A DNA stretch of 64,000 nt from positions 78,479 to 142,478 of the forward strand of contig LDXR01000007.1 in assembly GCA_001443495.1 (NCBI GenBank), written 5' to 3'. The DNA is from a candidate division NC10 bacterium CSP1-5. Its GTDB lineage: Bacteria > Methylomirabilota > Methylomirabilia > Methylomirabilales > CSP1-5. The notes below the pieces were generated by a model. That model was not told where the DNA came from, made no database searches, and worked only from the letters and a program-made list of their open reading frames with translations. Positions 9,838 to 19,672 of the stretch are shown here, piece after piece (within the stretch, counting starts at the first letter, position 1; each line of letters opens with the position of its first letter). Both the position numbers and the translations under genes were made by a program.

Positions 9838-10989
9838 TCAACTGACCCATGGCCACAGGAGCCGCCCGACGACGGCACCCCCGAGCACGAGCCAGGTCGC
9901 GTTCACCCGCCAGCGCAGGCCGGCCCCCGCCGCCGCCAGCGCGATGACCCAGGCGGGCCAGCTGGTGAGCGTCGAGACCGAGAGTTTCACCGTGACGGCC
10001 GCCATCAATGCCAGCGAGCTTACGTTCACCGCGTCGAGGAAGGCCGCCATCCATCGCGATCGTCGCAGCCGGGGCAACACGAGACCGAGCGCGGCGACGA
10101 AGATGAAGGACGGGAGAAAGATACCCGCCGTCGCCACCACCGCGCCGGGCAGTCCCCCGAGGATGTAGCCGATGAAGGTAGCCGTGCTGAGCACCGGGCC
10201 CGGCGTGAGCTGGCCGATGGCGATCGCATCGAGAAGCTGCGCCTCGTTGAGCCAACCGTAATCCCGGACGAGCCCGCCCTCGAGGAACGCCACCAAGACG
10301 TAGCCGCTCCCGTACAGCACCGCCCCGACCTTCAGGAAAAACAACCCGAGTTTTACGAGCGAGACGCTCGCCGCCGCTGCACTTCCACCCCCCGCGGCCG
10401 CAACGATGCCCGTCGCGGGTGCGGAGATCCACGCAAGGAGCGCAAGGCTGCCGGCTCGCCCGAGCCACAGCATGCCGATCACGCCCCCGAGGAGCAGGAG
10501 GACAATCTCGTCCCACCCGACGAGCGACGCGACCGCCACGGCGCATCCGAGACTCAGAAGCGGCATCCCCTTGGCGGCGCTTCGGCCCAGCCGCCACACG
10601 GCGGCGAGGATGATGGCGATCAGCGCCGGCTTGATCCCGAACAGGAAAGGGACAACCCGGGGCAGCGTGCCGAACGTGACGTAGGCCCAGGCGAAGCCGG
10701 TCGTGATCAGCACGGCAGGGATGATGAAGCAGAGACCTGCGATGAGGAGGCCGGCCCATCCGGCCCGGAGGTACCCGACGTGGATGGCCATTTCGGTCGA
10801 GTTTGGCCCGGGGATCAGGTTGGTCGCGCCCACGAGGTCCAGAAAGTGCTCGCGGGTGAGCCAGCGGCGGCGCTCGACCACCTCCTCTTCCATCATGGCG
10901 ATGTGCGCCGCGGGGCCGCCGAAGCCGATCAGGCCGAGCTTCAGGAATAGGCGTGCCAGCTCCGCGAGTCGCCCAGGTGGTGTCTCCAT
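9838..10989 (-). CDS. chrA: Chromate/anion transporter, ChrA family (two-domain)
   Basis: A 383-residue membrane protein with two homologous CHR domains. The first carries GFGGPAAHIAMM and IPGPNSTEMAIHVGY, the second GQLTPGPVLSTATFIGY, the paired family motifs. ChrA proteins export chromate or related oxyanions in exchange for, or driven by, proton or sulfate gradients. It is the last gene of a minus-strand unit with an MFS permease 18 bp upstream and an ETHE1-like protein before that, so an endogenous sulfur oxyanion is as plausible a substrate as chromate (inference). Confidence 0.9.
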   Translation of the reverse strand: METPPGRLAELARLFLKLGLIGFGGPAAHIAMMEEEVVERRRWLTREHFLDLVGATNLIPGPNSTEMAIHVGYLRAGWAGLLIAGLCFIIPAVLITTGFAWAYVTFGTLPRVVPFLFGIKPALIAIILAAVWRLGRSAAKGMPLLSLGCAVAVASLVGWDEIVLLLLGGVIGMLWLGRAGSLALLAWISAPATGIVAAAGGGSAAAASVSLVKLGLFFLKVGAVLYGSGYVLVAFLEGGLVRDYGWLNEAQLLDAIAIGQLTPGPVLSTATFIGYILGGLPGAVVATAGIFLPSFIFVAALGLVLPRLRRSRWMAAFLDAVNVSSLALMAAVTVKLSVSTLTSWPAWVIALAAAGAGLRWRVNATWLVLGGAVVGRLLWPWVS

Positions 10990-11007: not shown

Positions 11008-12351
11008 TCAGCTTCCGTGAGGAATGGGGTGGGCTGATTGCCGAACCTCGGTCGGACGCCGCTCGGGAAGTGTCTCGTACATGCGGAGGGCCACGATAAG
11101 CCCCGACAGGAGCGTCAGGGCGGCCACGACATGAATGGCGGCGGCCATCCCGAGGAGATCGGCAATCAGACCGGCCAATAGCGCCCCTATAGCATATCCC
11201 AGATCGCGCCAGAAGCGATAGACCCCCATGGAGGTGGCCCGCCAGCCCGCATGGGCAACATCGCTGATAGCTGCCAGCAGGACCGGGTACACCATCGCCG
11301 TCCCCAGGCCCTGCAAAACCGCGGCAAGAATCCACCACGAATACGTGGGAACAAGCACTGTTAACCAGATGCCGACGGCCTGCACTCCCATCCCCCCCGC
11401 AATGAGCCACTTCCGGCCGAGGCGATCGCTCAGTGGGCCCGTGATGGGTTGGAGCAGTCCCCACACCGCGGGATAGACCGCCTTGATGATCCCGATGGCA
11501 GCCACGCCCAGGCCATGCGAGGAGAAGAAGAGCGGGTAAATTCCCCAAGACATCCCATCATTGAGGTTGTTGACCAGACCAGCTTGACTACAGGATGAAA
11601 GCGCCCGTTCCTTCCAGGAGGTCAGCGCAAAAATCTCCTTAACCGAGGGGTGCCTCGCCCCAGGATTGTCAGAACTCGCTGATGTAAGGGCGGGCGCGTG
11701 AGATGTATGCTGCCGTGCCTCGAACCGAGCATAATCGATGGTCTCCCGGACAAACAACACAGAGCAGACCAGGCCTAACGCGGCGATGCCGATGCCCAGG
11801 TAGAAGGGCTCCGGGCGGAGGGAGTAGGCGGCGGCGATCTCACCCGTGACGTATGCCATGGTGCCGACGGCAAGATAACCTGCGAACTCGTTCAGGCCGA
11901 GGGCAAGTCCGCGCCGCTTGGGGCCCACCAGGTCCACCTTCATAATCACCGTCATGGACCAGGTCAGGGCCTGGTTGATGCCGAGCACGATGTTGGCAAC
12001 ATCGAACCAGATCCAGCGGTTGGCGTAAATGATAATGAAAGGGACCGGCAGTCCGATGATCCAGCCCAGGACTAGCACGCGCTTGCGTCCCCAGGATTCG
12101 GAGATCCGGGCGGCGAAGAAGTTGCAGATGGCCTTGACGATGCCGAAGCTGATGATGAAGGAGACGATGGCGGTCTTCGAGGCGAGGCCGAACTCCTGCT
12201 CACCGATCAACGGCACGACGGTCCGCTCGAGCCCGACCATAGATCCCACGAAGGCCGTGATCAGGACCAAGAGCGAGAACTGGCCTATGTTCTCCCGGAG
12301 GCCGAGGCGTAGCTCGGCTGCAGGACGCTTCACATCGGCATTCCCACTCAC
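11008..12351 (-). CDS. Major facilitator superfamily transporter
   Basis: A 447-residue transporter with about twelve predicted membrane helices in two halves separated by a hydrophilic loop near residues 210-245. The MFS loop motif between helices 2 and 3 is seen as ARISESWGRKRVL, and its counterpart in the second half as GPLSDRLGRKWLI. The gene starts only 3 bp after the stop of the candidate selenoprotein hydrolase, so they must be co-transcribed. The substrate is unknown; export of a sulfur-containing product is an inference from neighbours. Confidence 0.9.
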   Translation of the reverse strand: MSGNADVKRPAAELRLGLRENIGQFSLLVLITAFVGSMVGLERTVVPLIGEQEFGLASKTAIVSFIISFGIVKAICNFFAARISESWGRKRVLVLGWIIGLPVPFIIIYANRWIWFDVANIVLGINQALTWSMTVIMKVDLVGPKRRGLALGLNEFAGYLAVGTMAYVTGEIAAAYSLRPEPFYLGIGIAALGLVCSVLFVRETIDYARFEARQHTSHAPALTSASSDNPGARHPSVKEIFALTSWKERALSSCSQAGLVNNLNDGMSWGIYPLFFSSHGLGVAAIGIIKAVYPAVWGLLQPITGPLSDRLGRKWLIAGGMGVQAVGIWLTVLVPTYSWWILAAVLQGLGTAMVYPVLLAAISDVAHAGWRATSMGVYRFWRDLGYAIGALLAGLIADLLGMAAAIHVVAALTLLSGLIVALRMYETLPERRPTEVRQSAHPIPHGS

Positions 12352-12354
12352 GGC

Positions 12355-13092
12355 TCAGGTCTCGCCGCGATTCTTGCACCGAATGGTGGCAAACTCGGGG
12401 GGCTGCGAGGGCAAGTTCTCGAGCATGAATCGCACGAACTCGGCCTTTGGCCGGGGCTTCAGCGCCGGATTGAACCGCCGCTCGAATCCCAGCGTGGAGC
12501 TAGGATTGCCGCTCATCGCGCGACCGCAGGCCGAGCCGGCGAAGTGGGTCGGATAGAGCGCCAGCGCGTCATCAAGTGGAGCGAGCTTGATGAAGAGGCT
12601 GTCGTAGAGCTGTTCAGCGAGCACCCGGGACTCTTCGGGGCCATGGAGGTCTGGGCGGCCGGCGTCCCCGACGAAGAGGGTGTCCCCGGTCAAGAGGAGC
12701 CAAGGTTCGGGACCTCTGGTCTTGTCGGTCACGAGCAGGCAGATGCTGTCAGAGGAATGACCCGGCGTGTGGAGGACCCGCACCTTGACGTTGCCCAGCT
12801 CAAGCTGGTCCCCATCTTTCAACGGTTGGAAGGGAAAATGCGCCTGCGCAGCCCCGTGGAGGTAAATAGGGGCGCCCGTCTTCGCCGCCAGCTCGCGGCA
12901 GCCGGAGAGGTGATCCGCGTGAATGTGGGTCTCGATGATATGCGTGATCCGCATTCGGCTTCTCTCGCTGGCCTCGAGATACTGATCGATCTCCTGCTGT
13001 GGATCCACCACAGCTGCAGAGGCTCTTCCGCCTCACCCGAAGAGATATGAGGCACAGCCGGTCTCTGGTCTGAGGAATTGCCTGAAAATCAT
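12355..13092 (-). CDS. Candidate selenoprotein: ETHE1/persulfide-dioxygenase-like MBL hydrolase with in-frame TGA (Sec20)
   Basis: Read from the ATG at 13092 (GGAGG at 13098-13102, 5 bp upstream), the frame gives MIFRQFLRPETGCASYLFG, then TGA at 13033-13035, then GGRASAAVVDPQQEIDQYLE and the rest, 245 residues in all. Only the full reading restores the N-terminal strands of the MBL fold; a start after the TGA would lose them. The metal site is intact: THIHADHLSG, HTPGHSSD, LLTGDTLF and PTHFAGSACGR. As I recall, close homologues have Cys in the motif SYLFGCGG where this gene has TGA, so selenocysteine is the likely reading. A hairpin at 12996-13014 fits a bacterial SECIS. ETHE1-type enzymes oxidise glutathione persulfide to sulfite. 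It heads an operon with the MFS and chrA genes. The alternative is a nonsense mutation. Confidence 0.82.
12996..13035 (-). promoter_or_regulatory. Candidate SECIS element of the MBL selenoprotein
   Basis: On the minus strand, TGA (13035-13033) is followed after 18 nt by GCTGTGG (13014-13008), loop TGGAT (13007-13003) and CCACAGC (13002-12996). That is a perfect 7-bp stem with a 5-nt loop, G at loop position 2, and the loop begins 25 nt after the TGA. These values fall in the range used for bacterial SECIS recognition by SelB. Confidence 0.75.
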
Positions 13093-13122
13093 TGTGGCCT
13101 CCTGTGCCGTCTGCCTCGGGGC

Positions 13123-17444: not shown

Positions 17445-18239
17445 CTAATCTTTTTTTGGCGCTGGACCCTTCGCCCGGCGGTCCAGGACCTGCTTGGCGG
17501 CCCGGGAGACCGCGGCAGGGATGTTGCGATCGCTGGCCAAGAACTTGAGTTCCCTGTCGGTGAGATTGGGAAGCCCGAGAGCCAACGAGACCCCCACGGG
17601 AGTTTTCGGATTGTGGAGGAGGCCGGTGATCACCAATTTGTTGGCCCGGAAGCGCCGGATGTTGGCGATGGCCCTGAGGACTTTATCGGAGATATCCCGC
17701 ATTTGCGCGATAATGGCAATCTCCTCGTCGCTGATGCGCGGGCTGTTCACCACCTCGAGGGCGATCATGTCGTTGGGGTCCTTGATCAGGATCATCCGCG
17801 CGTCCTTATTCCCCTTCTTCGCCAGGGCCAGCTTCTGCCCCGTGTTCATCTCCCGGATCAACTGCACGAGGGTCTTCTTGCGCTCGCGCTCTTCTTTCGT
17901 GGTTTCGTGCAGGATCCATTGCACTCTGCGGCGGTCCGTCTCGGTCAGGCCGGGGTTCTTGAGGAGGGCATGGCCCACGACGGGGTTGTGAAAGATGAAG
18001 ACCCGATCCTCCAGCAGTTGGGCCGCCACCGAAGCCGGCGCCCGTTCCGCCATATAGATAATGGCGGGGAGGGGGGTCAGGGGATTCGCGACGAGGAGCT
18101 TCCAGAGTTCTTCATCATCGGGGAATTGGGCGGGCAACTCCTCGAGGAGCTGGGGCTCTATCTCTTGCGATTGGGCGAGGCGGGTAGCCTCATCGCGGGT
18201 GAGCGCGGACGGAGTCGGAGTGGCGCTCGGATCGCTCAT
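17445..18239 (-). CDS. Conserved alpha-helical repeat protein of unknown function
   Basis: A 264-residue protein I cannot name with certainty. It is soluble, without signal or membrane segments, and built from repeated short helices resembling HEAT or variant leucine-rich repeats: units such as LLVANPLTPLPAIIYMAE, KDPNDMIALEVVNSP and HNPKTPVGVSLALGLPNL recur with a period of about 35-40 residues around an NP(x)TP motif. Similar proteins occur, as I recall, near tmk in delta-proteobacteria. It starts 4 bp inside the selA end and ends 6 bp before tmk, so it is co-translated with both. A scaffold role is only a guess. Confidence 0.85.
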   Translation of the reverse strand: MSDPSATPTPSALTRDEATRLAQSQEIEPQLLEELPAQFPDDEELWKLLVANPLTPLPAIIYMAERAPASVAAQLLEDRVFIFHNPVVGHALLKNPGLTETDRRRVQWILHETTKEERERKKTLVQLIREMNTGQKLALAKKGNKDARMILIKDPNDMIALEVVNSPRISDEEIAIIAQMRDISDKVLRAIANIRRFRANKLVITGLLHNPKTPVGVSLALGLPNLTDRELKFLASDRNIPAAVSRAAKQVLDRRAKGPAPKKD

Positions 18240-19672
18240 GAGCTCAGCTCATCTGCAAGTATTGGACCGACGGCGCCGATCAAAAGCCCCACCTCGTCCT
18301 CGCGGACAGTTCGCATATCGAGGAGAACCTTTTCCCCTTTGATGCGCGCCACCACAGCCGGCTCTGCTTCCCTGAGCAGGGCCTCCAGTCGATGCGGGGA
18401 CACCTCGGACCTCTGAAGCGCGACGCAATACGTGGGGAGGCCCTGGGCAGGAAGCGCCCCCCCTCCCACCTCAGACCACTGCTCCTCGACGGTCACGCGG
18501 ACCGAGGGATGTGCCCGCGCCTGCAAGCCCGCGCGCACCCGCTCGGCGCGCTGCTCGATCTCGTGGAGCGGGCAGGCGATCATGGCCAGGGCGGGAATGG
18601 CACCGAGACCCTTCTCCCCTTCTAGGTAGGCCCGGAGGGTAGCCTCGAGGGCCGCGAGGGAGAGTTTGTCGATGCGCACCGCTCGCGCCAGCGGGTTTTT
18701 CCGGAGGCGCTCGATCATCAGCTTTTTCCCTACGATGAGCCCCGCCTGGGGCCCTCCGAGGAGCTTGTCTCCGCTGAACGCGATCAGATCCACCTCACTC
18801 CGAAGGGTCTCCTGGACGGTGGGCTCCCCCTTGAGGCCGAATGGGGCGAGATCGGCGATGGCGCCGCTGCCCATGTCGATCATCACCGGGAGGGCCCGGC
18901 GCCGGCCCAGCGCCACCAGGTCCGCGAGGGGGACGTCGCTGGTAAAGCCGAGAATCCGAAAGTTGCTGGGGTGCACCTTCAGGAGCAGGGCTGTCCTCTC
19001 CCCGATCGCATCTTCGTAGTCTTTGAGGCGGGTCCGGTTCGTGGTGCCCACCTCCCTGAGAACCGCCCCCGCCTTTCGCATGACGTCCGGGATTCGGAAG
19101 GAGTCTCCGATCTCGATCAACTCCCCTCGGGAGACCACCACCTCGCGGCCTTCGGCGAGCGTATTGATGCTCAGCAGGACGGCGGCAGCGTTGTTGTTTA
19201 CCGCAAGGGCCCCCTCGGCTCCCGTGAGGCGGGTGAGAAGGCCCTGTATATGCCCTTGCCGAGAGCCTCTGGCGCCTCTGGGGAGATCGAATTCTAAGGT
19301 CGAGTAGTGCTGCGCGACCTCGTGGAGGCGGGCCAGCGCCTCAGGAGACAGAGGGGCCCGGCCGAGGTTCGTATGGAGGATGACCCCGGTGGCGTTGATC
19401 ACCCGGCGCAGGCTTGGGCGGGCCAGGTGCAGGGTCTTGCGGCACACCTGCGCGAGGAGTGTGGAAAGATCGGGGACGAAAGTCTCGATCCCCTCGCGGA
19501 GGAGGGCTAGAATCTTTTGTCGGCGCTCCTCGAGGGTCTCCCGGACCGCCTCGATCACCGTCCACCGGGGATACGCCTCGAGGAGTTTCTGGATGACCGG
19601 CTCCTGGAGGAGTTCGTCGACCGACGGAATCTGGCGGAGGAGGAGGCCCGCCTGGTGCTCTGGAATAGCCAT
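18236..19672 (-). CDS. selA: L-seryl-tRNA(Sec) selenium transferase
   Basis: A 478-residue PLP enzyme that converts Ser-tRNA(Sec) to Sec-tRNA(Sec) using selenophosphate. The PLP lysine is in FSGDKLLGGPQAG, the phosphate-binding region in VINATGVILHTNLGRAPLS and VNNNAAAVLL, and the Asp in MIDMGSGAI. The N-terminal helical domain for tRNA(Sec) recognition is complete. It is the first gene of a minus-strand unit with tmk, holB and metG. selB, selC and selD are not in the window. Its presence supports reading three in-frame TGA codons in this window as selenocysteine. Confidence 0.97.
   Translation of the reverse strand: MAIPEHQAGLLLRQIPSVDELLQEPVIQKLLEAYPRWTVIEAVRETLEERRQKILALLREGIETFVPDLSTLLAQVCRKTLHLARPSLRRVINATGVILHTNLGRAPLSPEALARLHEVAQHYSTLEFDLPRGARGSRQGHIQGLLTRLTGAEGALAVNNNAAAVLLSINTLAEGREVVVSRGELIEIGDSFRIPDVMRKAGAVLREVGTTNRTRLKDYEDAIGERTALLLKVHPSNFRILGFTSDVPLADLVALGRRRALPVMIDMGSGAIADLAPFGLKGEPTVQETLRSEVDLIAFSGDKLLGGPQAGLIVGKKLMIERLRKNPLARAVRIDKLSLAALEATLRAYLEGEKGLGAIPALAMIACPLHEIEQRAERVRAGLQARAHPSVRVTVEEQWSEVGGGALPAQGLPTYCVALQRSEVSPHRLEALLREAEPAVVARIKGEKVLLDMRTVREDEVGLLIGAVGPILADELSS

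Follow-up and report, generated by a model that had tools for sequence, protein, structure and literature searches.

A predicted selenoprotein of the CstB-type persulfide dioxygenase-like family in a candidate division NC10 bacterium

Genes and features of the locus

The gene analyzed here occupies positions 12355..13092 on the minus strand of the window, that is, the whole stretch of 64,000 nucleotides under study. From its read-through frame, sequence comparison and a structural model, it is predicted to encode a 245-residue, CstB-type persulfide dioxygenase-like protein of the metallo-beta-lactamase (MBL) fold, with selenocysteine at position 20 (Sec20). The start codon, ATG at 13092-13090 (minus strand), is preceded, at a spacing of 5 nt, by the Shine-Dalgarno sequence AGGAGG (13098..13103, minus strand), directly recognizable in the sequence, so that the start and the GGAGG site given in the preliminary description are borne out. 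Codon 20 is an in-frame TGA (13033..13035, minus strand), the predicted selenocysteine codon, at a site that is a TGA column in 40 distinct loci and is occupied by Cys in close relatives. The frame then stays open for 225 further codons, up to the terminal TGA at 12357-12355, in agreement with the previously described MBL enzyme that continues in the same frame beyond a TGA following 19 codons. The read-through product matches PF00753, the metallo-beta-lactamase superfamily (Pfam, E 4.5e-16), and aligns over its full length with the MBL domains of two solved persulfide dioxygenases, 3tp9 and 3r2u.

Directly downstream, on the same strand, lies a gene for a transporter of the major facilitator superfamily (MFS; 11008..12351, minus strand; Pfam MFS_1), followed here by a gene for a ChrA-type chromate transporter (9838..10989, minus strand; PF02417, E 4e-82; TIGR00937 over its cut-off), and Pfam thus upholds both transporter genes that had been proposed to stand behind the enzyme gene. 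The window also contains, at 18236..19672 on the minus strand, selA, which encodes L-seryl-tRNA(Sec) selenium transferase (TIGR00474, 600.7 bits against a cut-off of 267.9). The other components of the selenocysteine machinery are encoded elsewhere in the same genome, namely, selB (G000:C2:33776-35665), a tRNA-Sec with a UCA anticodon (C2:28880-28970) and selD (L100, G000:C13:29194-30120), which is itself a selenoprotein gene, with a TGA in the motif GAGUACK. Hence, all three genes that were to be looked for, selB, selC and selD, the latter of the Sec type, are present, along with selA.

Decoding of the TGA codon

We scanned 99 genomes, mostly from the same genus, order and class as the bacterium that carries the window, and the relatives with an internal stop have TGA. 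A TGA is found exactly at column 20 in 40 distinct loci, of which 33 belong to the own group of the window and 7 come from acidobacterial genomes; the latter comprise six distinct loci from the first scan and the class of G099, plus one (L184) in another acidobacterial class. Among the stops in this column, TGA accounts for 41 of the 41 hits (the 40 distinct loci, one of which was counted twice), and neither TAA nor TAG was found. Locus L184 (G1198:C300) is peculiar in that it is a Sec form with a hairpin of the own-group type and a LysR gene, yet is assigned to an acidobacterial bin; its resemblance to L114 around the site, together with its place on contig C300, suggests mis-binning or a (possibly recent) transfer. 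Between close pairs of these genes, dN/dS ranges from 0.07 to 0.27 downstream of the TGA and, where computable, from 0 to 0.16 upstream of it; given these low values on both flanks, both sides of the TGA appear to be translated and under selection. An in-frame TGA in a single gene would usually raise the suspicion of a pseudogene or a sequencing error, and the need to verify the codon had been pointed out from the start. However, independent genomes carry the TGA within an intact frame, and with 40 distinct loci from independent assemblies sharing it and the sequence beyond it under the purifying selection just described, such an explanation has next to no probability.

Close single-domain relatives that lack the TGA mostly contain Cys at this site (L172, L174, L185-L187 and L189-L191), with Ser in L180, and relatives that are longer or fused to a rhodanese domain contain Cys or Ser. 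Cys also occupies the Sec position in the structures 3tp9 and 3r2u, whereas type I (ETHE1-type) relatives have Asp. The expectation of Cys at the aligned position of homologues therefore holds for the close homologues, which are CstB-like (type III), but does not extend to the ETHE1-type proteins for which it had been formulated. Separately, one Cys homologue (L011, 6001-6723) contains an in-frame stop, at VVDP*TDV, which is perhaps an assembly error.

Downstream of the TGA, at 12996..13014 on the minus strand, there is a candidate bacterial SECIS hairpin, supported by conservation and codon use, with a 7-bp stem and the 5-nt loop UGGAU at 13007-13003 (GCTGTGG-TGGAT-CCACAGC). The stem starts 18 nt after the UGA, and the loop follows after 25 intervening nt, the spacing initially proposed for the loop. 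The segment GCTGTGGTGGATCCACAGC is almost unchanged across the 33 own-group loci, even though as much as half of the protein sequence differs between them. All seven stem pairs are present in each of the 34 own-type Sec genes, compared to none of the 45 Cys and none of the 29 Ser homologues. Codon use in the hairpin is equally unusual: the rare codon GCT encodes Ala27 in 32 of the 33 own-group loci (7% elsewhere in these genes), the rare codon CCA encodes Pro31 in all 33 (8% elsewhere), and GAT encodes Asp30 in 31 of the 33 (30% elsewhere). In an analysis of synonymous constraint, the top six of the 156 tested positions were all located in the segment that runs from the TGA through the hairpin. 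With so little variation in the stem, support from covariation amounts to one double compensatory change (L128), apart from a single U-G pair (L103). When folding energies were compared with those of synonymous shuffles, the hairpin did not stand out (mean z -0.49), perhaps because the GC-rich shuffles also fold, and Rfam and ARAGORN searches of the window gave no match.

Two further hairpins are worth recording. Own-class relatives commonly contain another hairpin, GCGCAG-CTGCGC, that overlaps the first (equivalent to 13028-13013 of the window; columns 8-23 of the A3 alignment); it shows several two-sided changes and has two bases in common with the main stem. The acidobacterial Sec genes contain a different candidate hairpin, GG.CGC-CGUGU-GCG.CC, which, being invariant, lacks covariation support and is unproved.

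These observations bear on the possibility that the TGA is a true stop and that translation restarts at a GTG, for instance the one at 13011, to give a shorter MBL protein; a frame of 218 amino acids does exist from that GTG. Codons 1-19, however, are under strong purifying selection and, in the structural model, form the first strands of the fold, as the preliminary description had anticipated for the residues around the TGA. Furthermore, the stop at this site is invariably TGA, the codons of the hairpin are frozen, and the stem is complete only in TGA-bearing genes, which makes reinitiation very improbable.

The distribution of selB agrees with selenocysteine decoding. Among the own-group genomes with Sec forms, selB scored over the cut-off in all those checked except for G015 (63% complete) and G038; within this group, co-occurrence is a weak test because selB exceeds the cut-off in 84 of the 99 genomes. 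In the acidobacterial genomes with Sec forms that were tested, selB was likewise over the cut-off. One close acidobacterial homologue with TGC at the site (L004) nests inside the Sec clade, and its genome has no selB over the cut-off, which, as judged from sequence comparison, looks like a change from Sec to Cys accompanied by the loss of decoding. A test of a single Sec clade ended in rejection, an outcome to be expected when L004 (and perhaps the long-branched L019) falls within the clade, so this rejection does not distinguish one gain of Sec from two. The frame would also be open if near-cognate decoding or a changed code assigned one of the standard amino acids to the TGA. This seems highly implausible given that the gene itself terminates with TGA, that the complete Sec machinery is encoded, and that TGC replaces the codon where selB is missing.

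Taken together, the Cys-aligned TGA, the presence of selA, selB, tRNA-Sec and selD in the genome and the independent TGA loci support the selenoprotein reading as originally put forward. On this comparative evidence, selenocysteine decoding at codon 20 is nearly certain, and the joint assignment of the gene as a selenoprotein of the CstB-type family is very likely.

Fold, metal site and possible function

The structural model of the read-through protein (pLDDT 96) has its best matches in 3tp9 (Z 38.5, 40% identity), 3r2u (36.2), 4ysb (32.2) and human ETHE1 (31.9). Glyoxalase II, with a Z of 23.5, falls well below the persulfide dioxygenase matches, including 4ysb and 4chl, and all the closest structures with a named function are persulfide dioxygenases. 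His56, His112 and Asp137, the equivalents of the iron ligands in persulfide dioxygenases, are kept in 30 of the 30 own-type Sec rows of the alignment, and His61, the third His of the THxHADH motif, is present in all Sec rows. The acidobacterial proteins L142, L007, L143, L145, L146 and L154, as well as L004, have His in place of Asp137 and Ala in place of His183, a substitution pattern that might denote a three-His iron site.

In type III enzymes, the third His of THxHADH is described as replaced by Phe or Tyr (PMC6060420). The protein encoded in the window consists of a single domain of 245 residues, without the C-terminal rhodanese domain, and scores 50.6 bits against the NCBIfam model of bifunctional Blh (NF040641), below the curated cut-off of 625. 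With His61 kept and the rhodanese domain absent, it is best described as CstB-like rather than as CstB. Of the initial assignment to ETHE1/persulfide dioxygenase-like enzymes, the relationship to MBL persulfide dioxygenases stands, while the protein is nearer to the CstB type than to ETHE1.

The gene neighborhood provides additional clues. The MFS gene is located directly downstream in 32 of the 35 Sec loci with enough sequence, in contrast to 2 of the 26 Cys and none of the 28 Ser loci in the same comparison; in the Cys single-domain relatives that were found later, an MFS gene is also downstream in most cases. A divergent LysR gene is located upstream in 24 own-group loci, and in the acidobacterial loci, a gene for an ArsR-rhodanese regulator is directly upstream. 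This arrangement suggests, by inference, a module for detoxification and export that responds to sulfur. In one locus (L104), the MFS gene is replaced by an arsenite methyltransferase-like gene, located some 1.0 kb downstream of the Sec gene start, and this gene itself contains an in-frame TGA (KVEIWTA-TGA-IGGALLE) resembling a known UxxG selenoprotein type.

The chemistry of the protein is less clear than its decoding. By analogy with the closest structures, persulfide dioxygenase-like chemistry appears slightly better than an even prospect. It is quite conceivable, if short of probable, that the gene encodes a real selenoprotein that acts instead as a thioesterase or another hydrolase, or that serves the MFS exporter by processing a metalloid such as arsenic or selenium. 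Such a role would be in line with the retention of His61 and His183, possible ligands of a second metal, in the own-type Sec forms, with the changed metal site of the acidobacterial forms, and with the arsenite methyltransferase-like gene at the MFS place in L104 and the ChrA gene that follows in the window. It is harder to reconcile with the ranking of the structural matches, in which persulfide dioxygenases stand well above glyoxalase II, and with the rhodanese domain of the acidobacterial regulator.

A scheme for the action of the protein can be outlined. SelB and tRNA-Sec very likely decode the UGA at codon 20 as selenocysteine, directed by the downstream hairpin, a reading supported by the comparative sequence data. 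Judging by its family, the protein probably binds one iron through His56, His112 and Asp137 and probably oxidizes a low-molecular-weight persulfide to sulfite. In the model, Sec20 is located at the end of the strand 13-20, before the turn to the strand 25-29; being at the end of strand 2, at a hairpin turn, it probably does not bind the metal. The end of the fold that bears Sec20 is presumably the one away from the metal, which suggests a peripheral role for this residue. As a peripheral nucleophile, Sec20 could accept sulfane sulfur from a donor or enter into a reversible selenenylsulfide. The strand that faces it carries Cys26 in 25 of the 30 own-type Sec rows and in 1 of the 21 Cys rows, so a Sec20-Cys26 selenenylsulfide is possible in the relatives that have this residue; the protein of the window has Ala26. 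The product might then be exported by the conserved MFS transporter. In its full form, with Sec at the sheet edge relaying sulfane sulfur (or selenium) to the distant iron site in conjunction with a dedicated MFS exporter, and with the acidobacteria using the same module with a rebuilt metal site (His for Asp137), this scheme is speculative and rather doubtful.

If the selenoprotein assignment is correct, an MBL-fold enzyme would be added to the selenoproteins and the use of selenium would be tied to the handling of reactive sulfur. The Sec forms and their Cys counterparts (L004, L172, L174, L185-L187 and L189-L191) offer a natural comparison that bears on why an enzyme keeps selenium. Automatic annotation is likely to truncate or miss such genes.

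Relationship to known systems

Neither an MBL-fold protein nor a persulfide dioxygenase appears among the 119 prokaryotic selenoprotein families and subfamilies that a 2026 inventory lists (PMC13188914). Term searches of other selenoprotein surveys likewise gave no such entry, and the literature searched, with Haft and Tolstoy 2025 and Deng et al. 2026 outside the search, contained no selenium-dependent MBL enzyme. Within the same bounds, the earlier remark that no described Sec-containing persulfide dioxygenase was known to its author agrees with the inventory and with the literature searched. The inventory also refers to a groundwater study in which 63 selenoproteins were predicted in a Methylomirabilota genome, along with further unvalidated candidates (PMC13188914).

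The rhodanese-type and other sulfur-handling selenoproteins resemble the predicted protein in having a Sec linked to sulfane sulfur and in being decoded by means of a UGA and a hairpin, but their folds differ from the MBL fold (PMC13188914, Table 1). ETHE1 and the bacterial type I persulfide dioxygenases (4chl, 4ysb and 5ve3) share with it the fold, the 2-His-1-Asp set of iron ligands and 25-32% identity, but in type I relatives the Sec position is taken by Asp. Within the same genome, a paralogue (L002, G000:C7:15250-15954) has an MBL domain that is 43% identical, but contains Ser at the Sec site and is fused to a rhodanese domain. The greatest likeness is to CstB, represented by the structures from Staphylococcus aureus (3r2u) and Alicyclobacillus (3tp9), with an MBL domain of 36-40% identity across the aligned structures (Z 36-38) and Cys both at the Sec site and at position 189. 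CstB differs in possessing a C-terminal rhodanese region, whereas the protein of the window consists of a single domain, has Sec instead of Cys, and keeps the third His of HxHADH, which is Phe in 3tp9.
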